Assembly (NCBI RefSeq): GCF_030294985.1
Contig: NZ_AP024718.1
Location: 124,001 to 188,000, forward strand
Source of the DNA: Methylomarinovum tepidoasis
GTDB taxonomy: Bacteria > Pseudomonadota > Gammaproteobacteria > Methylococcales > Methylothermaceae
Direction: 5' to 3'
DNA length: 64,000 nucleotides
Shown here piece after piece: positions 7,050-18,735 of the stretch (position 1 is the stretch's first letter; the number at the start of each line of letters is the position of its first letter). The notes under the pieces were generated by a model, which was not told the origin of the DNA, did no database searches, and saw nothing but the letters and a program-made list of their open reading frames with translations. Made by a program: the position numbers and the translations under genes.

Positions 7050-8708
7050 ATGTCCCGTCCGATAATGCGCCTTGCCCCTTTACGACGCTGGTTCCCCTTT
7101 CTGCGTCCGGTATGGCCGCACATCGCCCTGGGAATCGGATTGCAAGGCCTCGCCCAGGGCGCACTCCTGGTCGCCCCCTGGATCGCAGGACGCATCACCG
7201 ATGAATTGCTGCAGCCGCAAACAGCAGACGCCATCCCCTGGCAATCCCTTGCCCTGTTCCTGGCGCTGCTCCTGATTCGAAACCTGCTGAGTTTCTTCGC
7301 TTCCTGCCTCATCGGCACCGCCCACGAAAACCTGCTGGCCCGGCTGCAGGAAAAGATCCATGCCCATTTGCTGTCACTGCCCCTGGGTTTTTTCCATCAG
7401 CATTCACGGCGCGATCTGAGCGTGCTGCTCCACCACGAAGCCGCCCATGTCGCCGGTTTTCTGGCGCTCACGCTCCCTCCCCTGCTGCCTCATACACTTC
7501 TCTTGCTGGCGATCATCGGCATACTGACCGCTTTGGCCCCACTTCCAGGACTGGCATTGGCCCTCTTGTTACCAACAGGTTATGGAATCAGCCGCTGGTT
7601 CGGAGGAAAACTGCACCGGCTGGCCGACCAAATCCTTACCAGCTACGACGAAGCCCTCACCTGCGCCCGCGACAACCTGGCCCGCATTCAGGAAATCAAG
7701 GCTTTCCATCGCGAAACTTTCGAAAACGTTCGTTTCCGCGATTGCTTACAGCAGGTCTTCCAGCGCAGTCGCCGTTACGTAATCGGGCAGGCATTATTCA
7801 CCCTGGCGATCCAGAGCGCCATCGCCGCCGCCCTGGTGGCAGCCGTTGCCTGGAGCGCTCTGGAAACGGTCAACGGGCGGCTGAATACGGCCCGGCAATT
7901 CAGCTTCCTGATGTATGCCCTGCTGCTGTTCTATCCCCTCAATTCCCTCAGCGGCATTTACGGCAAATTGCAGCAGGCCAGCGCCGCCGCCCGGCGGCTG
8001 AACGCGATCCTGGAGACCCCACCGGAGAGACATCACGGTTACCGGCTCCGGCGCCGGGACGCCGAAGGCGACATTCTCTTCAACCGGGTATCCTTCGCTT
8101 ATCCCGGTCAGACGCCAGTCCTGAATGACCTGACGCTCTCCATCGAGGCGGGAACCACCGTCGCCCTCGTCGGCCCCAACGGCAGCGGCAAAAGCACTCT
8201 GGTGGCCCTGTTGCTGCGCTTCTACGATCCTGACAGCGGCATCATTACCATCAACGGCCGCAGTCTGACCTCATGCAGCCCGGCAAGCGTCCGCCAACAA
8301 ATCGCCTATGCCGGCCAGCACACCCGTCTGTTCCATGACACCCTGTTCGCCAACATCCTGTACGGCAATCCGGAAGCGGATCGCAGACAGCTGGAAGCCG
8401 CCTGTGCGGTCGCTCAACTGGACGCGCTGATCGCCTCGCTGCCCAGGGGAGGCGAGACCGAAATCGGCCCCGATGGCGTACGATTGTCCGGCGGGCAGCG
8501 TCAGCGCGTCGCCCTGGCCCGGGCATTGATCAAGGACGCCCCCATTCTGGTATTGGACGAGGCCACGTCCCAGTTCGACCCCGAAGGGGAACGCCGTTTC
8601 CTCCAGGCGGCACGCGAGCGCTTCGCCAAAAAAACCGTGATCCTCGTCAGCCATCGCCCCCATAGCCTGGAAATCGCCGACCGGGTGTTTCGGATGGGAA
8701 AACCATGA
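7050..8708 (+). CDS. ABC exporter, fused permease and ATPase (MsbA-like); candidate RiPP or glycan exporter
   Basis: 552 residues. An N-terminal exporter-type membrane domain (about 1-310, six predicted helices) is followed by a nucleotide-binding domain with Walker A (GPNGSGKST, about 374), signature LSGGQRQRVALARAL (about 479) and Walker B (ILVLDEATS, about 498). No peptidase domain precedes the membrane part. The start abuts the phosphatase stop and the end overlaps the B2-like gene by 4 bases. A fused exporter next to a B2 protein is the usual arrangement in lasso-peptide clusters (LanT/McjD role), so peptide export is the leading inference. Glycolipid export is the alternative. Confidence 0.85.
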   Translation: MSRPIMRLAPLRRWFPFLRPVWPHIALGIGLQGLAQGALLVAPWIAGRITDELLQPQTADAIPWQSLALFLALLLIRNLLSFFASCLIGTAHENLLARLQEKIHAHLLSLPLGFFHQHSRRDLSVLLHHEAAHVAGFLALTLPPLLPHTLLLLAIIGILTALAPLPGLALALLLPTGYGISRWFGGKLHRLADQILTSYDEALTCARDNLARIQEIKAFHRETFENVRFRDCLQQVFQRSRRYVIGQALFTLAIQSAIAAALVAAVAWSALETVNGRLNTARQFSFLMYALLLFYPLNSLSGIYGKLQQASAAARRLNAILETPPERHHGYRLRRRDAEGDILFNRVSFAYPGQTPVLNDLTLSIEAGTTVALVGPNGSGKSTLVALLLRFYDPDSGIITINGRSLTSCSPASVRQQIAYAGQHTRLFHDTLFANILYGNPEADRRQLEAACAVAQLDALIASLPRGGETEIGPDGVRLSGGQRQRVALARALIKDAPILVLDEATSQFDPEGERRFLQAARERFAKKTVILVSHRPHSLEIADRVFRMGKP

Positions 8709-9109
8709 GGAGAGCGCAAAAACTGCGCTTCGTTTTGCACCAACTGCCCTGGATCGCCGAAGCCTGGGGGCGGTTGCTGCTGGCCCGCTTCCGCCGGCGG
8801 CCGTTTCCTCCCCCGGCACCCCGGGGAAAATCCCCTTCCCTGGATGTCCTGGTACGTTGCTTTCAGATCGCCGCCGCCCATCATATTTACCGTCCCACCT
8901 GCCTCCCCAGAAGCATTGCGCTGCATCATTTCCTGAAACGCCACGGCCACCCGGCGGTATTGCGGATCGGGGTCCGCAAGGAAAAGAAAGGCATCAAAGC
9001 CCACGCCTGGGTCGAGGTCGATGGGCGGATCGTGGACGACGATCCGCTGAACACCCAACGCTATCAGCCTTTACGAACCCGCCACGATGATCCGACGGAA
9101 CCGGAATGA
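8705..9109 (+). CDS. Lasso-peptide B2-type transglutaminase-like protein (PF13471)
   Basis: 134 residues. The core PTCLPRSIALHHFLKRHG and later AHAWVEVDGR match the transglutaminase-like domain of lasso B2 proteins (McjB C-terminal half), whose Cys-His-Asp triad cleaves the leader peptide. Cys66 and His100 are present and Asp106 is the candidate acid. The protein is free-standing, so the RRE/B1 function must come from elsewhere, and a PqqD-like gene lies at 15364. It overlaps the ABC exporter gene by 4 bases and the next gene by 23, implying coupled translation. Related proteins also occur in exosortase-type exopolysaccharide loci without a defined substrate. Confidence 0.85.
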   Translation: MRRAQKLRFVLHQLPWIAEAWGRLLLARFRRRPFPPPAPRGKSPSLDVLVRCFQIAAAHHIYRPTCLPRSIALHHFLKRHGHPAVLRIGVRKEKKGIKAHAWVEVDGRIVDDDPLNTQRYQPLRTRHDDPTEPE

Positions 9110-10135
9110 CCCTTTGTATGCGGCCTTCCTGGCCCTGGTTTTCTTGCTGCCGTTACCCATGGGGGGCAACCGCATTCCTTTCCGCAGCGTGTTGGCAGGT
9201 GCCGTTTTTCTGCTGGTCGCGGTCTGGTTGTGGCAATGGTACCGGGGAAACCGGCCCCTGACGCCAGCCCTGCGGGCGGCCAGGCCCGCCCTGATCACAT
9301 TGGCGTTATGGTCCCTTTATGTGGCATTGCAGCTATTGCCTCTGCCTGTCTCGGTTTTGGCGCGGATTTCACCAGAGGCGGCCAAAGCATACCTTGTCCT
9401 CCATCAATCAACCGCCCCGCTCACCCTGGAAAACCACGCCACCCGACTGGGATGGTTGCAAACCTTGGCCTACACCGGCATCTTCCTGTTGACCCTGGCG
9501 CTCATCGACAGCCGTAAGCGGGTGAAAACCCTGGTCTTGGTCCTGGTGACCGCCGGAACCCTGCAAGCGCTTTATGGCACCTTCATGGTGCTCTCCGGAT
9601 TGGAATGGGGGTTTCCAGGACCCAAGCCAACTTTCTGGCACCGCGCCACCGGCACTTTCGTCAGCCGGAACAACCTGGCCAATTACCTGGTGTTATGCCT
9701 CTCCGTCGGCCTGGGACACCTGCTGGCTCAAAGCGCTCCGAACCCCTTCCGCCGATCCTGGCGCCAACGTCTGCGGCACCTGTTGGACTGGTTCCTCGGC
9801 CCTGGCATGCGCCTGCGACTGATGCTGTTGGTCATGACCGTGGCATTGGTCATGACCCGTTCGCGGATGGGCAACGCCTCGTTCTTTTTCGCCCTGCTGT
9901 CGACCGCATGCCTCATGCTCTTTTTCGGCAAACGCCGAGTTTCGCCCGCGGTATTGATTCTGATCTCCAGTCTGTTGATTGTGGATGTCTTTTTCATTGG
10001 CTCCCTGGTCGGATTGGACAAGGTCGTCCACCGCCTGGAACAGACGGAAAACATGGGGGAACGCGGCATCCTCGATACCTGTTCCCTCCGTTATTGGCAG
10101 GATTATCCCTGGTCCGGTTCCGGACTGGGAAGTTA

Positions 10136-11125
10136 CTATGTGTCAAGCCCCGTGAGATTATATACACGTTTTTTGAAGAGCTCCGGCCGCTTCTTCTGCC
10201 AGTCTTTGAGGGCCTGTACTGGTGAGATGTGTCCCAGGGCCTTCTGGGGGATCTGATGGTTGTAGACGCTGGCATACTGCATCAGGGCCCGATCCAGATC
10301 CTGGCTGCTTTGGAAGCGAGTGGTTTTGAGGATTTCGGCGATCCGACCGTTGAAGCGTTCTACCATGCCGTTGGTCTGGGGGTGTTTGGGCGGGATGAGG
10401 CGGTGCTCGATGCCATGGCATTGGCAGACCTGGTCGAAAAGGTGTCGGCCGGTCGGTTCGCGCTCCCCGGTGGCACAGAAGCGGTCGGTAAACTCTTTGC
10501 CGTTATCGGTCAGGACCTTGGTGATTGTGAAGGGGGCCTTGGCGATCAGGCGCTCGAGGAAGGCGGCGGCGACCCTGGCTTCCTTGGTGGGATGGATTTC
10601 CAGGTAGACCCAGCGGGTGGCCCGATCGATGGCGACGAAGAGGTAACGGCCCCGGCTCTCGTCGGGCATCTTAGGCAGGTACTTGATGTCGATGTGGACA
10701 AACCCGGGCTCGTAGTCCTTGAAGCCCTTCTTCTTGCCCTTGGAAGGGGCGTTCTCTCCTTCCTTGGCGGCGATCAGTTCTTTGAGGTTGGAAACCCCAT
10801 GGCGGCGCAGCAGCCGGTCCAGAGCCGAGCGGGACATCTCGGGATAGATGAAGCGATGAACGACCGCCAGCAGGTCATCCAGGGGCAACAGCAGGGTTTC
10901 GCGCAGACAGACGACGATCGCTTCCTGCTGCGGGGTCAGGGTGGCATGGATGCGATGGGGCCGGTGCGAGGCGTCCTCGACCGAATCGCGCTGGCGCCAC
11001 TTGCGGATGGTATGACGATGAACCCCGTATTTCCTGGCCAGAACCGTGGCCGGCAGCTTGGAGTTCTGGATCTCCCGGCGGATCTCGGGCGTGGTGCGGG
11101 CTTTCTTGTGGAGACGGATGACCAT
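10136..11125 (-). CDS. IS481-family transposase
   Basis: About 329 residues. An N-terminal helix-turn-helix (LARKYGVHRHTIRKWRQR) is followed by an rve-type DDE integrase core, with catalytic Asp in FVHIDIKYL, Asp in VLTDNGKEFT and Glu in MVERFNGR. The ATG at 11125 gives a family-like N-terminus; the frame is open further upstream, but the extra part looks non-coding. The last sense codon contains the first base of the element and the TAG stop is read from the target duplication (10136-10138), so the stop is supplied by the host DNA. It appears intact and may be active. Confidence 0.93.
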   Translation of the reverse strand: MVIRLHKKARTTPEIRREIQNSKLPATVLARKYGVHRHTIRKWRQRDSVEDASHRPHRIHATLTPQQEAIVVCLRETLLLPLDDLLAVVHRFIYPEMSRSALDRLLRRHGVSNLKELIAAKEGENAPSKGKKKGFKDYEPGFVHIDIKYLPKMPDESRGRYLFVAIDRATRWVYLEIHPTKEARVAAAFLERLIAKAPFTITKVLTDNGKEFTDRFCATGEREPTGRHLFDQVCQCHGIEHRLIPPKHPQTNGMVERFNGRIAEILKTTRFQSSQDLDRALMQYASVYNHQIPQKALGHISPVQALKDWQKKRPELFKKRVYNLTGLDT

Positions 11126-11256
11126 GACTTCCTCCTCGTCCATCAAGCTTGAGTCGTCTTTCCGGCCTGGGACTCTGCCATCAGCTCGCTCAGAACATCC
11201 CAAGCACGGAACAAAGGATAGCTCCTCTTGGGAATATGATCACACGGGACCCAACA
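10141..11256. mobile_element. Complete IS481-family insertion sequence (1116 bp)
   Basis: The ends form imperfect inverted repeats. The left end starts TGTCAAGCCCCGTGAGAT; the reverse complement of the right end starts TGTTGGGTCCCGTGTGAT. About 17 of the first 23 positions match, with TGT...ACA termini. It is flanked by the direct repeat ACTATG (10135-10140 and 11257-11262), a 6-bp target duplication resembling the NCTAGN target known for IS481. A single transposase gene on the minus strand fills the element. The intact ends and exact duplication suggest a recent insertion. Confidence 0.93.
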
Positions 11257-12390
11257 ACTATGCCGTCGTCCCCCGCTACTTCCAGGCCGAAATTTCAGGC
11301 ATCTGGAGCCACGCGCACAACGATTACCTGCAGTTCCTCAATGAAGTCGGTATCCTTGGCGTCGCCTTGCTCGGCGCTTTTCTGTTATTTTGTCTCAGAC
11401 AGGCCTGGCAGGCGATCAGCTCTCCTTCCCCTTGGCGCCGCGGCTACGGATTCGGCATCCTGATGGCGTCCATCGCCACTTTGATGCACGCCACGGTCGA
11501 GTTCAATCTGCAGATTCCCGCCAATACGGCCACCTGGCTGACCCTATTGGCCCTGGCCTGGATCGTATCCAACGAACGGGATGAAAAATGCAGTCACCGG
11601 GCACAGCCTCCTTACTCCCCCGATCATACCCATGACCGCTCCCGGATGGCTACCACCCTCGCCCTGACCGCAATCGGACTTTGTCTCGCCCTGGCTTTCA
11701 CTGCCCTGCGTTGGGGAACCGCCGACCTGCTCACCGAGATCGACGAAGCTGCACTGGACGAGTCCTCGCCCGAACAAATCCTCCCACGCCAACGACTGGC
11801 CACCCGGCTCGATCCGGCCAACCATCACGCCTGGTTCACTCTGGCCAGGGTCCATTTGTATCAGGCCGACACTACGGGCCAACATTCCGGGCCTCTGGCC
11901 AGCGCCCGGAAATATTCCCGCCAGGCGCTGAGGCTCGCCCCCAGCGAGGCCGGAAACTGGCTGCTTCAGGCAGCGACGCTCGCATTTCAAGGACAATTCG
12001 GCCCGGATTTCAGCATCGCCCTCCATCGAGCTTTTCACCACGCCCCCTGGAAAACCAAAATCCTGTTGGGCATCGTCCACTTGGGGGAATCGAGCTGGCC
12101 CAGGCTGACCCAACGGGACCGGCGGGTCGTCACCGAAGCGGCCCTGCACGCCCTGATCCGCCGCCGTCACCGCAAAGGTATCGCCATCCCCGGCGGGGCC
12201 ATGTTGCTGTCGCAGTTCTGCCGTACACACCGTGACGAATACGCTGAGCTCGCCAAGGCATGCCGGAAGCTCAAATCATCGTCTTCCGATCCGAGGCCTT
12301 TTTCCATCCTGAGGATTCCGAGTACCCGACCGTTGGACGGTTTTTCCGGCTTTACGCCTCACAGAGCACTAAACTATTGAGAGGGGGAGA

Positions 12391-14439
12391 ATGAGCAGAC
12401 CGATTTCCAATTGGTCGTTCCATTGCTTCCTCGCCCTGCTGGTGTGGATTCCCCTGCCCCGGGCCAGCAACCGCCCGGAAGCATGGGGTCTGCTGGAGAT
12501 GCTCACTTTTCTTCTGCTCCAGGTCTGGCTGTGGCACCAGCTGCGTCACCGCCAGCCTCTGCCTGCCGCGATCCGGACCGCAAAACCGGCTTTGTGGCTT
12601 TGGGGGGCATGGCTGGTCTGGGGACTGATCCAGCTGATTCCCCTCCCCCCCGAACTGTTATCCCGGCTGTCTCCCAAGACCGCCGAACTGCAGTACCTTC
12701 CACCGCTTGCAGCCGAACGCTGGGCATCCCTGTCCCTTTCCCCCCACGACACCTTCGTCCAATGGCTCAAGGGCCTGTGCTACGCCACCTGGTTCTTTTT
12801 GACCCTGGCCCTGGTCAACTCCCGGCGCCGCTTGCGCCTGCTGGCTGGCGTCATCGCCGCCAGCGCCGCCTTGCAGGCGGTGTACGGAACGGCGATGACG
12901 CTCACCGGCCTGGAACTGGGATTTCTGATCCCCAAATTCGCCTATGTCGGCACCGCTACCGGCACCTTCGTCAACCGCAACCATTTCGCCAATTACCTGG
13001 CTCTGGCCGCCATGGTGACCGTAGCCGCGATCCTGGCCCAGTTGGAGGACAGGCAGCGGCCGGTCTCCTCCCGCATTCGCTGGCGCAATCTGTTGAACTG
13101 GCTGACAGGCAACAAAATCTGGCTGCGCCTTGCCCTTCTGGTCACCGCCATCGGCATCGTGGCCTCCCGCTCCCGCATGGGCAACGGCATTTTTTTCCTC
13201 GGCCTGCACCTGGCGGGAATCCTGGCCTTCATCCGCTGGCCCCGCCCGACCCGGCCGGCCATCCTGATTCTGATCGCCAGCATGATCATCCTGGATGTTT
13301 TCATCATCGGCTCACTGGTGGGCCTGGAGCGGGTCGCCCAACGGATGGAACAGACATCCCCAGCCAGCGAAGGACGTGACGAAATCGCCCGCGACACCCT
13401 GCACTACTGGCGGGACTTCCTCTGGACCGGCTCCGGCCTCGGTACCTACGCCGTCATGCTGCCGGCCTACAAACAGGGCGATGTCAAAGGATTTTACGAC
13501 CATGCCCACAACGACTATCTGGAGCTGGCCGCCGAGGCCGGATTGACCGGCATGGCGATTCTCGGATCGCTGGTCATCCTTTCCCTGTGGCAAGGCTGGA
13601 TCGCCTTACGGCGCAGCCGCCATCCCTGGAAACGGGCCATGGCGCTGGCTTCGCTCACCGCGATCCTGATGATGCTGTTGCACGCCACCGTGGATTTCAG
13701 CCTGCAGATCCCCGCCAACGCGGTCTTGTTCACCCTCCTGCTGGCGCTGGCATGGATCTGCGCCACTCCCGCTTCGGCCGAACCGGCATCCCCCCTGCCC
13801 CGTCCGTTGTGGGCGCTCCTCCTCCCCGGCCTGACCACCCTGCAGGTGCTGGCGTTCCGTCTGTCAGCCTCCGATTACATCAGCAACGAATCCCACGCCC
13901 GAACTCAAAGCTGGCAGGCCGCCGGAACCGTCCCCCGGAGCACATGGCAGCGAACCTACCGCCTGCAACAAAAGGCCGTTGCGCTCGCTCCCGGCAACGC
14001 CTGGGCCTGGGTCAACCTGGCCCGGCTCAATCACTGGCGGCACGCTTTTACCAACGGGCCAAACCCAAAGATCGACCGGGTTTCCCTGCAATGGCTGCTC
14101 CGCGCGGCGGCGGCGCAGCCTGCCGACGCCAGGATCTGGCTGGCCATCGCCACCATCCGGATCGCCCAGGGACGGATGGACGCGCTGTTCCGCCACTCGG
14201 TGCACCACGCTTTCCAACTGGCTCCCTGGGAATCGAAAATCCAATGGTCCCTGCTCCGCCTGCTCCTGGCGGTCCACCCTCATCTGCAGGGCCCCGAGAG
14301 GAACCTGCTGTATGAAACCTTGCGCCACAACCGGCAGCTGCAACCGGAGCGCATCCATCGCCATCTCCCCGACAGCGACATTCCGGCCGGACTGTGTGCA
14401 GAAACCACCGCCGGGGCCACACATCCCGATGTCTCCTGA
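12391..14439 (+). CDS. O-antigen ligase / Wzy-type polymerase-like membrane protein
   Basis: 682 residues, starting at an ATG behind GAGGGGGAG. About ten membrane helices in the first 440 residues contain the Wzy_C/O-antigen-ligase region (GTFVNRNHFANYLAL and later YDHAHNDYLELAAE in the large periplasmic loop), followed by a soluble TPR-like C-terminus. Proteins of this shape polymerise or transfer undecaprenyl-linked glycans, or glycosylate proteins, on the periplasmic face. It is a tandem paralogue of the IS-interrupted gene just upstream and may cover its function. The choice between ligase and polymerase cannot be made from sequence alone. Confidence 0.85.
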   Translation: MSRPISNWSFHCFLALLVWIPLPRASNRPEAWGLLEMLTFLLLQVWLWHQLRHRQPLPAAIRTAKPALWLWGAWLVWGLIQLIPLPPELLSRLSPKTAELQYLPPLAAERWASLSLSPHDTFVQWLKGLCYATWFFLTLALVNSRRRLRLLAGVIAASAALQAVYGTAMTLTGLELGFLIPKFAYVGTATGTFVNRNHFANYLALAAMVTVAAILAQLEDRQRPVSSRIRWRNLLNWLTGNKIWLRLALLVTAIGIVASRSRMGNGIFFLGLHLAGILAFIRWPRPTRPAILILIASMIILDVFIIGSLVGLERVAQRMEQTSPASEGRDEIARDTLHYWRDFLWTGSGLGTYAVMLPAYKQGDVKGFYDHAHNDYLELAAEAGLTGMAILGSLVILSLWQGWIALRRSRHPWKRAMALASLTAILMMLLHATVDFSLQIPANAVLFTLLLALAWICATPASAEPASPLPRPLWALLLPGLTTLQVLAFRLSASDYISNESHARTQSWQAAGTVPRSTWQRTYRLQQKAVALAPGNAWAWVNLARLNHWRHAFTNGPNPKIDRVSLQWLLRAAAAQPADARIWLAIATIRIAQGRMDALFRHSVHHAFQLAPWESKIQWSLLRLLLAVHPHLQGPERNLLYETLRHNRQLQPERIHRHLPDSDIPAGLCAETTAGATHPDVS

Positions 14440-14460
14440 GTGTCAGTTTTTTTTACACTC
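14438..14460 (+). terminator. Weak terminator-like inverted repeat after the ligase gene
   Basis: GAGTGT (14438-14443) and ACACTC (14455-14460) flank a run of eight T at 14447-14454. The T-run lies inside the loop rather than after the stem, so it is not a canonical intrinsic terminator. It marks the end of the exopolysaccharide operon, just before a new sigma-54-type promoter. Confidence 0.3.
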
Positions 14461-14519
14461 GAAAGCCCGACAACAAGCCCTCCGATACAGTTCAAAATAA
14501 AATCACCGACATATGCAAA

Positions 14520-14535
14520 CGGCGTTAAAATTGCT
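14520..14535 (+). promoter_or_regulatory. Candidate sigma-54 (-24/-12) promoter for the metalloprotease-PqqD-HprK operon
   Basis: CGGCGTTAAAATTGCT has GG at 14521-14522 and GC at 14533-14534, separated by exactly 10 bases, with a full TTGC at the -12 element. It matches the RpoN core GG-N10-GC. The predicted transcript start is near 14546, about 36 bases before the ATG at 14582. A similar element precedes the PEP-CTERM gene at 17404. Confidence 0.6.
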
Positions 14536-14581
14536 TGTGTATGTTCATGCCGCTGTTACTGAATCTGGAGGTAACAAGATC

Positions 14582-15367
14582 ATGCGCCGACAGCTTCTGA
14601 CCGTCACCCTGACCCTGGCCCTGACCCGACCGGCGGCCGCGTTCGACATCGCTTTCGATTACACCTACGGCGATTCCTTTTTCGATGCCTCCATCCAGAA
14701 CATCCTCGACAGCGCCGCCGCCGTGTACGAAAGCCGGATCACCGACACCCTGGCGGATACATCGGGTCTAAGCGCATCCATCGCCAATCCTTCCGACCCT
14801 AACCAACAGGTAACTGTCCAGGCATCACCGGCGGACACGCTCACCATCTATCTCGGCGCCCGGGACCTGGGATCCGGCACTCTGGGCCTGGGCGGTCCTG
14901 TGTGGTTCGAAGGCGACAATCTTCCAAGAACCGTCTCCGACAGCGAATTCGAGCCTGCATTTGGAACCATCACCTTCAACAACGCCTTCAACAACTGGTA
15001 TATCGACCCAGATCCCAGCACCACCGAATCGTTCAGCGGCTACGATTTTTACTCGGTCGCCCTGCACGAGATCGGACACGTCATGGGCATCGGCAGCGCC
15101 CCATCCTGGGATGCTCAGATCCAGAACGGTACGTTCACCGGACCGGCCGCCACGGCTGCCAATAACGGCGCGGCGCCAAACGTCACCAGCGACGGCGGTC
15201 ACTGGGCCGAAGGCACCCAAAGCACGGTCAACGGCCAGCCCCAGGAAGCGGCCATGGATCCCACCATCGGCAACGGCCAGCGCAAACAGTTGACCGATCT
15301 GGACTGGGCCGCCCTGGACGATATCGGCTGGGACGTACAAAGCAATTCAGTGAGCCCGAACTCATGA
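14582..15367 (+). CDS. Secreted zincin metalloprotease (leishmanolysin/matrixin-like)
   Basis: 261 residues with a signal peptide ending near PAAA-F (about 20). The zinc motif is LHEIGHVMGIGS (His162, Glu163, His166). The usual third ligand of matrixins (HExxHxxGxxH) is replaced by Ser172. A later GGHW (His208) followed by the AMDP Met-turn (Met226) suggests a leishmanolysin-like third ligand, as in bacterial HEIGHVxGIG proteins. No sorting tail is present; the chain ends shortly after DDIGWDV. The ATG at 14582 has GGAGGT upstream. Its stop overlaps the PqqD-like gene by 4 bases, so a role in processing the peptide or PEP-CTERM proteins is possible but unproven. Confidence 0.8.
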   Translation: MRRQLLTVTLTLALTRPAAAFDIAFDYTYGDSFFDASIQNILDSAAAVYESRITDTLADTSGLSASIANPSDPNQQVTVQASPADTLTIYLGARDLGSGTLGLGGPVWFEGDNLPRTVSDSEFEPAFGTITFNNAFNNWYIDPDPSTTESFSGYDFYSVALHEIGHVMGIGSAPSWDAQIQNGTFTGPAATAANNGAAPNVTSDGGHWAEGTQSTVNGQPQEAAMDPTIGNGQRKQLTDLDWAALDDIGWDVQSNSVSPNS

Positions 15368-15642
15368 ACCGACACCAGCGTTACCACATCCCCGATCACG
15401 TATTGTTCCAAAAACTGGAAAACGAGACCGTCCTGCTCAACCTGGAAGACGGCCATTACTACGGCCTCGATGACCTGGGAACCCGGATCTGGCAGATGTT
15501 GAAGCGAGGCGACAGCCTGGGCGAATGTCTGGAATGGATTCTGGAAAACTATGAGGTCTCCCCCGAGCAGGCCGAAAAGGATCTCAATGCGTTGATCCGG
15601 CACATGACCGAAAAGGGGCTGATCGAACCCGCCGGCCCATGA
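15364..15642 (+). CDS. PqqD-family RiPP recognition protein (lasso B1 / HPr-rel-A system type)
   Basis: 92 residues: the small winged-helix PqqD fold, with LLNLEDGHYYGLDDLGTRIW as the typical strand-turn-helix core and a C-terminal helix ending LIRHMTEKGLIEP. Such RREs bind leader peptides and present them to modifying enzymes. In lasso systems the B1 protein recognises a leader with YxxPxLxxxG, the pattern found in the peptide encoded at 16511-16684. It overlaps both the metalloprotease gene and the kinase gene by 4 bases, indicating translational coupling. The pairing of a PqqD-like protein with an HprK-related kinase is known as the HPr-rel-A arrangement, of undetermined function. Confidence 0.88.
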   Translation: MNRHQRYHIPDHVLFQKLENETVLLNLEDGHYYGLDDLGTRIWQMLKRGDSLGECLEWILENYEVSPEQAEKDLNALIRHMTEKGLIEPAGP

Positions 15643-16466
15643 CGCCCCACTTCCATTCACTTTACGGTCTGAACCTGGCCAGCGACTTCGACCTCGGCCT
15701 GCCCCCCGCCCGGGGAAAAACGGATCTGTGGATCTATCGCGGCGAAGGCCGCGGGGCACGCCTTCAGCTGACGACCGGACGGGCCTGGCTCGACCCGCAG
15801 GCCGGAACGATCCACTTCCAGCCCGGACCACGGCTGGACGCCGAAGCGATCCGGCAGGTCATCCTCAACGTCCTGCTGCTGGAAATGCTGCCCCGGCTCG
15901 GTTACGTCTGCCTGCACGGCAGCGCCGCCACCCGCGACGGCTGCACCCTGGCGGTGCTCGCCCCCCAGGGCACCGGCAAGTCCACCTACGCCGCCGCCCT
16001 GGCGTCCCAAGGCTGGCGACTGCTCAGCGACGACCTGCTGATCATCGAGGCGGAGAAGCTGACCATTCAGCCTGGCATTCCCCAGATCCGCCTGTGGCGG
16101 GACAGCATCGAAACCCTGGGCTGGCAGCGCCGCCCCCGGGATCCCGACCGTTACCGGCCCGGAAAGTTCGCCCTGCCGCTGCAGACCGACCCGCACCCCC
16201 GACGCCCCGACGCCATGATCGTGCTGGCGCGGGGACAAGGGGAGATCAGGCGGCTCGCCCCCGCGGAGGCCTTCTTCAGCCTGCTCAACAACAGCTTTCC
16301 CCTGCAGATTCCGGACCGCCGGGCCGAGGCCCTGCGCTTTCAGACGCTCAGCCGCCTGAGCCGCGATCTTCCGGTTTACCGCCAGTCCCTGACGCCCCGC
16401 ATCCTGGAAAACGCACGCCGGGCGCTGGACGCCGTCGTCCCGGCAAGCGCGAAAACGACTCCATAA
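15639..16466 (+). CDS. HprK-related kinase (HprK-rel-A type)
   Basis: 275 residues. The HPr-kinase-like nucleotide-binding core is clear: LHGSAA, P-loop APQGTGKST (about 108-116) and LLSDDLLII (about 129-136). The N-terminal regulatory domain of true HprK is absent or very divergent and no PTS genes are near, so HPr is unlikely to be the substrate. In the paeninodin lasso cluster a related kinase phosphorylates a C-terminal Ser of the precursor; the peptide encoded opposite this gene has Ser56 as its penultimate residue. It forms an operon with the PqqD-like gene and its stop codon is part of a terminator hairpin. Confidence 0.85.
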   Translation: MTPHFHSLYGLNLASDFDLGLPPARGKTDLWIYRGEGRGARLQLTTGRAWLDPQAGTIHFQPGPRLDAEAIRQVILNVLLLEMLPRLGYVCLHGSAATRDGCTLAVLAPQGTGKSTYAAALASQGWRLLSDDLLIIEAEKLTIQPGIPQIRLWRDSIETLGWQRRPRDPDRYRPGKFALPLQTDPHPRRPDAMIVLARGQGEIRRLAPAEAFFSLLNNSFPLQIPDRRAEALRFQTLSRLSRDLPVYRQSLTPRILENARRALDAVVPASAKTTP

Positions 16467-16496
16467 AGAATCCCGCTCTTGGAGCGGGATTCTTTA
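16464..16496. terminator. Bidirectional terminator between convergent operons
   Basis: A perfect 15-bp stem (16464-16478 with 16482-16496) has a 3-base loop and ends in TTCTTTA on the plus strand and in the same sequence on the minus strand. The left arm includes the kinase stop codon. On the minus strand it lies 14 bases past the peptide gene stop, so it serves both operons. Confidence 0.85.
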
Positions 16497-16510
16497 TACT
16501 GGGCTTCTTT

Positions 16511-16684
16511 CTAGGGAGAGGGCGGCTGGAACCCGCCGCCTCCGCCAGAGCCGATATCGCCCGGCCCCGGCGGGTTACCGGCGGGAATGGAAGTACGCCC
16601 CAGGGTCAGATGGGAGACCTCCCCAAAATCGGTCAACTTGGGAGGTTGATAGGCCTGTTTCTTAGCTTGCTGATCCATTTTCAT
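16511..16684 (-). CDS. Candidate RiPP precursor peptide with a lasso-type leader (57 aa)
   Basis: Starts at an ATG with TGAGGT about 6-9 bases upstream. Residues 12-29 fit the lasso leader consensus exactly: Tyr12, Pro15, Leu17, Gly21, Thr27, Gly29 (YxxPxLxxxGx5TxG). Leader cleavage after Leu28, next to the penultimate Thr, would give a 29-residue core starting at Gly29. The core is Gly/Pro-rich, with five Gly at 47-51 and an end of FQPPSP. Its only acidic residue is Asp43, core position 15, so the usual 7-9-residue isopeptide ring cannot form. It lies 21 bases downstream of the PEP-CTERM gene on the same strand. Leader match, ribosome site and neighbouring RRE, B2, kinase and transporter genes together support it as the substrate. 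Confidence 0.8.
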   Translation of the reverse strand: MKMDQQAKKQAYQPPKLTDFGEVSHLTLGRTSIPAGNPPGPGDIGSGGGGGFQPPSP

Positions 16685-16705
16685 CGTCGATACCTCACAA
16701 AAAAC

Positions 16706-17404
16706 TCATCCGATTTTCAGTATGGCACATTTGCCCCTGTGCCGCACGATCAGTCCGAGCAGCCCGACACCCACCAAAAAGAGGCTGCCCGGCTCCGGCA
16801 CGGTGAATTTCCAACCCTGGATAAAAACACCGTTGACGTAGGAATCCACCTGCCACTCACCCCGCTCGTCCAGCACCACAGGGTCGGTGAAGAACTGCCA
16901 TCCGGGACCCAAAGAGCTGGAAAGACTGCTCCATGGCACCTGGACATCGTTGTGGTATTTGCTGGTGTCAGGATCGGCCATGGTGGAAGGGGCGTTCCAC
17001 ACCACGGTCCAAACCAAGGTATCAACTAAAGATGATCCCCAGTTGCTCAAAGCGACATTGAGAGCTGTTTGAGTCAAGTAGGTGAAATCGAACAGCTCAC
17101 CCGCCCGGACCGTATCGCCAAAGGAAAACGCGTCCAAAGCCGCCGGACCGCCGCTTTTCTGCGGCACCGGCGTTCCAGAGCCGGTATCGAGATAAGTCAC
17201 GATCCCTGGCGGGACCGCGTTTTCCGAGATGGTGATGACGTCGGTCCCGTCCGGCACCCCGGCCACCCCACTGGCCCCTGTCGCCGCACTCCCATCGATG
17301 TCGCAGTAGGGATAACTCCCTCCGCAATTTACAGGGGTCGCCCCCGCAAAACTGCCGGCCAGCAGCAAGGCCAGCCCAAAACATAAACGCATTATCTTCA
17401 TCAT
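16706..17404 (-). CDS. PEP-CTERM sorting-domain protein
   Basis: 232 residues. It has an N-terminal signal peptide (about 1-22, ending FAGA) and a C-terminal sorting signal from about residue 202: VPEPGS, a hydrophobic helix (LFLVGVGLLGLIV) and a basic tail (RHRGK). Exosortase recognises this tail, and the mature protein should be processed and linked to surface or exopolysaccharide. The middle is a Gly/Ser/Thr-rich beta-type domain of no recognised family. The ATG at 17404 has AGGAGA 7 bases upstream; a GTG at 17407 is less likely. No exosortase gene is in the window. It is the first gene of an operon with the candidate RiPP precursor. Confidence 0.9.
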   Translation of the reverse strand: MMKIMRLCFGLALLLAGSFAGATPVNCGGSYPYCDIDGSAATGASGVAGVPDGTDVITISENAVPPGIVTYLDTGSGTPVPQKSGGPAALDAFSFGDTVRAGELFDFTYLTQTALNVALSNWGSSLVDTLVWTVVWNAPSTMADPDTSKYHNDVQVPWSSLSSSLGPGWQFFTDPVVLDERGEWQVDSYVNGVFIQGWKFTVPEPGSLFLVGVGLLGLIVRHRGKCAILKIG

Positions 17405-17444
17405 CACTGATTCTCCTTATAGGATCAAACCCAGATATCACTAT

Positions 17445-17459
17445 GCAACAATCAGACCT
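17445..17459 (-). promoter_or_regulatory. Candidate sigma-54 (-24/-12) promoter for the PEP-CTERM-peptide operon
   Basis: On the minus strand the sequence reads AGGTCTGATTGTTGC (followed by A), with GG at 17458-17457 and GC at 17446-17445 separated by 10 bases and TTGCA at -12. The predicted start near 17433 leaves a leader of about 29 bases that includes the AGGAGA ribosome site. PEP-CTERM genes in floc-forming bacteria are known to depend on RpoN and PrsK/PrsR, which fits. Confidence 0.5.
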
Positions 17460-17550
17460 TAATAGAAAAATATATTACATTCAATCTCTTGAACACCCTC
17501 TGACGATTCCCAACACGCAACCACAGCCGAATTGTAAAAAATTCTGACAG

Positions 17551-18735
17551 CTACAACCGCTCCCGCTTGGAATCATAATCCGGATCGCCCCAAGCTTTCA
17601 ATCCCGCAGGCAACTTGCGCAGCAGACAGACCACCCGGGCCGGGAGATTTTGCCAGCCCGGCGCATAACAGATGTTGCGCCAGGCCCAGGGCAGCATGTT
17701 CAGGCGATAATAAGCCGTCAGCGTCATGCGCCATAGCGATTCGCCCCAACCGGCCGTTTCCACCGGTACCGAAAACCGCAGCCCCATCAGCAGGCGCCGC
17801 GCGTTCCAGCGCACCCGACGCCCGGCCTGTCCCGTCAACGGCGTTTCCGTCCCGAACAGCTCCCCGGCCAACACCGCATACGCCAACAGCGGGGTGCGAA
17901 AACCCTGGCGTTCGCACAGGGAAAGCAGCGCCTGCCAGTCGATCCATTCCCGGTAACGCGCCACCAGCCAGGCGAATTCCGCCATCTGCATCAGATTGAT
18001 CCGGGATGTCAGATACTCCTTTTTGAGGGCATGCACCACATTGTGCAACACCCTTTCGGTGGGGGCCGGAATGGCCGTCCGCTGTCCCTCCCAAAGTACC
18101 GTCTGCCGACGTCCCCAGACCCGCGCCGTCGGGAGAATGCGATTCCCCTGGCCGTAACAGACCCGGTAGTGGAGCTCGATCACCACCTGATGGCGGGCAT
18201 CGTAGAACGGCGGCAGGTGATGGTGGCGACGGTCGAACACGTCCCCCGCCAACACCGCCGCCGGCGGGCATTCCTCGCGGAAACCGTTCTCCAGCAACAC
18301 CCGCCGGGCCCGCTCCTTTTGGGACTCCGGCACCAGAATGTCGAGATCCCCCATGGCCCTGGCGCCGGAATCGCCATACAGATCGTCGCAGAAGGTCGCC
18401 GCCCCCTTGAGCAACAGGGTCTCGATCCCCGCTCGTTCGAACAAGGCCAAGATCTGCCTGAGGCAGTGACGGTGACGCAGATAGCGCACCGTGTCACGAC
18501 GGTAGGCCCCCTTCAGCGCAACCGCCATCTCTGTAGGCAATCGCGCCAGCAGCCCGTGGCGTTTGAGATTGACATACAACAAGGAAGCACAACCGTGGGC
18601 CTGTGCATAGGCAAGCCCCAGGGGTGACAACAGCGCGGAATCAGGATTGAGCCCCCCAGACAGATCAGGGGCCAGCAACCTGGACAACGACCTCACCGCG
18701 CCACCACCGGGCATCTCAGGTAAAAAATCACACAT
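17551..18735 (-). CDS. Nucleotidyltransferase family protein (PF14907 type)
   Basis: 394 residues. The segment TLLLKGAATFCDDLYGDSG and then ARAMGDLDILVP (Asp130, Asp132) is the pol-beta-type nucleotidyltransferase core; the rest is a helical C-terminal region. This family recurs next to PqqD-like and HprK-like genes in lasso (paeninodin-type) and exosortase-associated loci. The chemistry is unproven; transfer of a nucleotide to the peptide or to its kinase product is a guess. It lies upstream of the PEP-CTERM gene on the same strand with about 145 bases between, which contain that gene's own promoter. The start at 18735 is not backed by a clear ribosome site. Confidence 0.8.
   Translation of the reverse strand: MCDFLPEMPGGGAVRSLSRLLAPDLSGGLNPDSALLSPLGLAYAQAHGCASLLYVNLKRHGLLARLPTEMAVALKGAYRRDTVRYLRHRHCLRQILALFERAGIETLLLKGAATFCDDLYGDSGARAMGDLDILVPESQKERARRVLLENGFREECPPAAVLAGDVFDRRHHHLPPFYDARHQVVIELHYRVCYGQGNRILPTARVWGRRQTVLWEGQRTAIPAPTERVLHNVVHALKKEYLTSRINLMQMAEFAWLVARYREWIDWQALLSLCERQGFRTPLLAYAVLAGELFGTETPLTGQAGRRVRWNARRLLMGLRFSVPVETAGWGESLWRMTLTAYYRLNMLPWAWRNICYAPGWQNLPARVVCLLRKLPAGLKAWGDPDYDSKRERL

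Follow-up and report, generated by a model that had tools for sequence, protein, structure and literature searches.

The window (the whole 64,000-nucleotide stretch that was analysed) contains on its minus strand a 57-codon open reading frame, from 16684 to 16511, whose product is MKMDQQAKKQAYQPPKLTDFGEVSHLTLGRTSIPAGNPPGPGDIGSGGGGGFQPPSP. Regarding its translation start, the Shine-Dalgarno sequence GAGGT is spaced 7 nt from the ATG; the ORF and the good ribosome site before it, both proposed in a preliminary description of this DNA, were recovered, with the gene on the minus strand and the ribosome site conserved in a congener (G003). That description had also fitted residues 12-29 to the pattern YxxPxLxxxGx5TxG, and the match is exact: when the window is translated in all six frames the pattern turns up once, and a set of 200 first-order Markov sequences of window length gave no occurrence. 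The product reaches 24.3 bits on the NCBIfam model NF033521 (lasso_leader_L3), with a cut-off of 19, and is the sole above-cut-off match of this model in the whole 2.44 Mb genome; its leader has the features of lasso-peptide leaders (YxxPxL...T(-2)). The precursor gene and the features that surround it are collected in Table 1.

Table 1. Features of the precursor locus (positions in the window)
Feature	Position	Strand	Evidence and remarks
MsbA-like ABC exporter	7050..8708	+	MsbA_lipidA 344 bits, the best NCBIfam match, below cut-off 602; PF00005/PF00664
B2, lasso-type cysteine leader peptidase (predicted)	8705..9109	+	NF033537 78.7 bits, cut-off 33; PF13471 88 bits
Secreted matrixin-like metalloprotease gene	14582..15367	+	NF038122 65.6 bits, below cut-off 80; syntenic in G003
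B1, discrete PqqD-like RRE, lasso type	15364..15642	+	PF05402 67 bits; lasso_PqqD_Bac 56.7; PqqD_rel_X 19.1; TbiB1 E 1.3e-12
K, HprK-like peptide kinase (predicted)	15639..16466	+	P-loop APQGTGKST, H93, D131-D132; outside HprK-rel-A clade
Hairpin between kinase and precursor genes	16463..16497		dG -28 kcal/mol, z -6.4; also in G003
Precursor peptide gene	16511..16684	-	NF033521 match; ortholog L018:15648-15842; leader ~residues 1-28, core from G29 (GRTSIPAGNPPGPGDIGSGGGGGFQPPSP)
Predicted core, 29 residues	16514..16600	-	By sequence; Thr at position 3, no D/E at 7-9
Leader recognition motif, residues 12-29 (YQPPKLTDFGEVSHLTLG)	16598..16651	-	Exact YxxPxLxxxGx5TxG
Shine-Dalgarno GAGGT of precursor gene	16692..16696	-	Conserved in G003 together with the start codon
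PEP-CTERM protein gene	16706..17407	-	PF07589 28.8 bits; syntenic in G003
N, NTP-transferase, family of phosphorylated-lasso clusters	17551..18735	-	PF14907 165 bits; syntenic in G003

As for the processing genes, the RRE and the cysteine leader peptidase expected of a lasso system are both predicted in the window (B1 and B2, respectively); C66 and H100 of B2 are invariant in the alignment, and a comparison of B2 with solved structures gave no match. The B1 and K genes overlap by 4 bases, and so do the exporter and B2 genes. The precursor gene stands tail-to-tail with the PqqD-like/HprK-like pair, as described earlier: the kinase gene is convergent with it, and the PqqD-like gene lies directly upstream of the kinase gene. 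Since B2 is 7.4 kb away from the precursor gene, and B1-K are on the strand opposite to it, these genes cannot all share one transcript, and they were grouped into a set by proximity and synteny. The PEP-CTERM gene lies on the same strand, with 21 bases between it and the precursor gene downstream, and the two probably form one transcript; the hairpin between the kinase and precursor genes is probably a bidirectional terminator.

Polysaccharide export, chain-length and O-antigen-ligase-type genes flank the set. At 9087-12380, an insertion that carries an rve-type transposase (minus strand, 10136-11203) interrupts an O-antigen-ligase-type gene, and the split halves of this gene cover positions 2-105 and 108-148 of PF04932. 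The metalloprotease gene overlaps the start codon of B1 both in the window and in G003, and is associated with the set.

The neighbouring pair had been taken for HprK-rel-A/PqqD, and the peptide for a direct candidate substrate of that system; neither assignment was supported. Against cut-offs of 200 for TIGR04352 and 35 for TIGR04353, the window kinase reaches 58.3 bits and the PqqD-like protein 19.1; the corresponding scores of a true pair, from congener G006, are 382.9 and 61.7 bits. Congeners G004, G008 and G009 carry matches to the window-kinase query or NTP-transferase genes of the type accompanying HprK-rel-A. In a maximum-likelihood tree of 48 kinases, rooted at the midpoint, the HprK-rel-A branch forms one clade (100/100) with the window kinase outside it; the window and G003 kinases are also outside the lasso-type set (93/85), and with this midpoint root they fall between the two sets. 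The identity of the window kinase to the Bacillota paeninodin-type cluster kinases compared is ~24%. Alanine in place of the first P-loop Gly is usual in common P-loops. The window kinase has this Ala; of the residues listed for such kinases (PMC10368454), it retains the Gly, Lys and Ser of the P-loop as well as the His and both Asp.

Finally, the search for leader-bearing ORFs proposed along with that assignment came back empty: among 3,433 small ORFs lying no further than 6 kb from 25 HprK-rel-A-branch kinases, the exact leader is absent, and a loose, random-looking version of it is seen in 8. Membership of the HprK-rel-A/PqqD family is ruled out by the curated cut-offs, the tree, and the lack of leader ORFs at that branch. 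That the peptide is nonetheless a substrate of this system would agree with the adjacency of a kinase and a PqqD-like protein, and an NTP-transferase gene is also found beside HprK-rel-A pairs; however, with both proteins below the family cut-offs, the kinase outside the clade and no leader ORF at the 25 loci, this reading is largely refuted and we regard it as extremely unlikely. Because the window pair is not HprK-rel-A/PqqD, the peptide tells little on the substrate of HprK-rel-A.

The suggestion that the PqqD-like neighbour is of the leader-binding type fared better. Its closest full-length solved structure is TbiB1, a lasso B1 (E 1.3e-12), which is nearer than PbaB1 (9X90, 6.4e-6) or LppB (9X8Z, 2.3e-5), and its 56.7 bits on the Bacillus lasso PqqD model are themselves below the cut-off of that model (80). 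Being a lasso-type B1 by sequence, it is the obvious predicted binding partner of the leader.

The core is where the resemblance to a lasso peptide ends. Ring closure in a lasso needs an acidic residue, Asp or Glu, at one of core positions 7-9 (PMC10368454); counted from G29, the window has A-G-N there and G003 has A-G-G, and the whole G003 core is devoid of acidic residues. The core C-terminus is ...PPSP, so the C-terminal Ser of the paeninodin type is absent. Most other distinct NF033521-type precursors read have D/E at core 8-9, and the exceptions are the cores of G012 and G024, from a cluster with a cyclase gene.

The genome is 99.9% complete (two contigs, 2.44 Mb), and a search of the whole of it with PF00733 found no macrolactam cyclase gene. 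Two Asn-synthase proteins exceed 100 bits on PF00733, both full-length: the XrtA amidotransferase, identified by 1041 bits against a cut-off of 817, and a paralog whose gene lies no more than a few kb away; on the lasso-cyclase model, with a cut-off of 525, they have 250.5 and 100.8 bits, respectively. G003 likewise has no lasso cyclase above the NF033535 cut-off; a third Asn synthase, 7 kb from its precursor gene, was considered as a cyclase and rejected, since at 409 bits (cut-off 267) it belongs with the ordinary asparagine synthases. With no cyclase gene found and no Asp/Glu at core 7-9, a lasso peptide identity is ruled out, and because the ring-forming enzyme and its required residue are both missing, the product is probably linear. 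A macrocycle might still be formed in trans by one of the two XrtA-type proteins, given their partial scores on the lasso-cyclase model, but such pairs occur in most congeners, including G001 and G002, where the window-kinase query gave no match, and the G003 core offers no Asp or Glu at all; we consider this very unlikely.

In G003 the precursor has an ortholog at the same place, with the same gene order, and the two peptides are 82% identical, with 26 of the 29 core residues unchanged. The Shine-Dalgarno sequence, ATG, frame and stop are all kept, and similarity falls past the stop. Over 44 synonymous and 127 replacement sites the two genes differ by 16 and 14 changes, respectively, giving a dN/dS of 0.24 (Fisher p 0.0004), similar to B2 (0.28), the kinase (0.28) and the NTP-transferase (0.31); the values for B1 and the exporter are 0.08 and 0.12. 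Judging by these substitutions, the precursor gene is under purifying selection, and the RiPP precursor candidate of the preliminary description can be taken, from the leader model, the ortholog and this selection, for a genuine gene. The conservation check that it had proposed, in relatives with the same kinase/PqqD pair, lost its premise together with the HprK-rel-A identity; the ortholog itself is present in the one congener sharing the locus. The carriers of the precursor are two genomes of one genus, and it is absent from most congeners; two scans of named genome contigs, one using the kinase alignment and the other the precursor alignment, gave no match.

The B1, B2, K, N and exporter genes are all present in G003, syntenic and in unchanged order, and since they are intact with dN/dS of 0.08-0.31, the pathway appears to have been kept without the cyclase. 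This bears on the possibility of a decaying lasso cluster, whose precursor and enzymes would be relics left after loss of the cyclase: the cyclase and the ring residue are indeed both gone, and most congeners have no precursor, but the whole set, precursor included, is intact in two species at these dN/dS values, with the core nearly unchanged, and decay is unlikely. Of the preliminary reading, the RiPP precursor with a lasso-type leader stands and the HprK-rel-A/PqqD identity falls; B2, the exporter, the NTP-transferase, the absent cyclase and the absent ring-closing residue had been overlooked.

Other loci with lasso leaders offer further points of comparison. A near-invariant core, GFAGS[VI]PDEQGGQTKRNPF[QL]G, is found in L040:1523-1672, L078:9380-9571 and L203:1459-1617 (L203 being the L209 locus), in three bacterial families, a constancy that is unusual for a lasso core; each of these precursors has a secreted PEP-CTERM-type gene before it and an HprK-like kinase gene adjacent, and two of the PEP-CTERM-type proteins are 39% identical. 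These clusters are like the window in the NF033521 leader, the adjacent HprK-like kinase and the PEP-CTERM-type gene directly upstream, and unlike it in that their cores keep D8/E9 and that cyclase and B2 are present in G934 and G428. Lasso genes of polysaccharide loci are dispersed: in G428 (L231-L232), the distance to the precursor is ~26 kb for B1/B2 and ~35 kb for the cyclase-like gene, and in G378 (contigs C18/C37) the best cyclase match and B1/B2 are on different contigs. L081, from G378, was rejected as a second cyclase-less case, its absence being local only, with a lasso-cyclase-like gene on another contig. In congener G007 a kinase gene adjoins a precursor whose ring acceptor is intact; the assembly of G007, in 460 contigs, yielded neither B2 nor a lasso cyclase, which may be an assembly gap. 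The precursors L019:11670-11843 (GSLVLSVVTPLTATLADVAGG) and L020:12216-12581 (GALALSVITPLTATLVDI) have a lasso leader and a core without D/E at 7-9; a radical SAM protein, closest to the YydG epimerase family, is encoded beside them together with B2 and a cyclase-like gene, and these precursors are possibly another non-lasso use of lasso leaders.

Among known systems, the nearest are the linear polyphosphorylated peptides (LPPs), which are described from Bacillota only and come from cyclase-less clusters in capsule loci with an RRE, an HprK-like kinase, an NTP-transferase and an MsbA-like exporter (PMC13381572). The window has this whole gene set, with a lasso-like YxxP leader, a discrete RRE, no cyclase, and a polysaccharide locus as its setting. 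The differences concern the leader and its removal: the LPP leader is YxxPxVLxHQxIxFETxxS, whereas the window has a classical lasso leader with only YxxPx in common; the LPP leader peptidase is of the SpI-like serine type, whereas the genes identified at 7050-18735 include no SpI-like peptidase and hold a canonical lasso B2; and the window B1 is nearer TbiB1 than LppB in sequence.

The phosphorylated lassos (paeninodin, pseudomycoidin, Bsf) share with the window the precursor, B1, B2, kinase and exporter, and some of their clusters also have the NTP-transferase; the Priestia paeninodin cluster L179 has all the gene types of the window, NTP-transferase included, plus a cyclase gene. Unlike them, the window has no cyclase gene, no ring acceptor and no paeninodin C-terminal Ser, and its leader has Y in place of the paeninodin W. 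The HprK-rel-A/PqqD_rel_X cassette (TIGR04352/TIGR04353) is similar in that a PqqD-like gene stands beside an HprK-like kinase gene and has a PF14907 gene close by; it differs in that both window proteins are below its cut-offs, its loci have no leader ORF, and B2 was not found there. Taken by its genes, the window system appears LPP-like in its working and lasso-derived, and on genes alone it is assignable to neither class.

The ORF is thus best read as the precursor of a lasso-derived linear RiPP, no longer made into a lasso, that is phosphorylated and exported, and we hold this reading to be likely. We infer the reactions, the phosphosite, the product and its role from sequence, as follows. 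B1 would bind the YxxPxL leader and present the precursor to the HprK-like kinase, which would phosphorylate one of the hydroxyl-bearing core residues, Thr3 (G-R-T-S) being the most likely. Regarding this site, LPPs are phosphorylated at core Ser3, and LppK rejected Thr at position 3 (PMC13381572); BsfK acts on core residue 3, whether this is Ser or Thr, and B1 speeds the phosphorylation (PMC10368454); PadeK phosphorylates the C-terminal Ser, and PsmN attaches a hexose to phosphorylated Ser in pseudomycoidin (PMC9266682). The window core has Thr at the position of the LPP Ser3, a residue accepted by BsfK and not by LppK; as it ends in Pro rather than Ser, and has Thr at 3 where BsfK takes either residue, Thr3 is, by analogy, our best guess for the phosphosite. 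B2, helped by B1, would then cut after leader residue 28 (T at -2), between L28 and G29, to leave a linear 29-residue Gly/Pro-rich peptide starting at G29; the phosphate may then receive a hexose or a nucleotidyl group from the NTP-transferase, and secretion by the MsbA-like exporter would bring the product to the cell surface.

For this product, the polysaccharide/PEP-CTERM setting points to a possible role in the matrix. The modified peptide might even stay cell-associated, for instance joined to polysaccharide via its phosphate or a sugar rather than freely secreted, which would suit the polysaccharide locus, the PEP-CTERM gene directly upstream and the NTP-transferase; the exporter, however, points to secretion, and we rate this alternative as improbable. 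To return to the exported linear phosphopeptide, a broader proposal, offered only tentatively, is that the system represents a separately evolved cyclase-less phospho-RiPP lineage outside Bacillota, probably in Gammaproteobacteria, in which a canonical B2 frees a linear phosphorylated, perhaps glycosylated, Gly/Pro-rich peptide for a polysaccharide/PEP-CTERM matrix. If true, lasso machinery would have been converted to linear-peptide machinery at least twice, and LPP-like peptides would extend to another bacterial group, with a different leader peptidase. With cyclase and acceptor absent and the rest of the phosphorylated-lasso pathway intact, the locus is a natural test of how the kinase, the NTP-transferase and B2 work without the knot.
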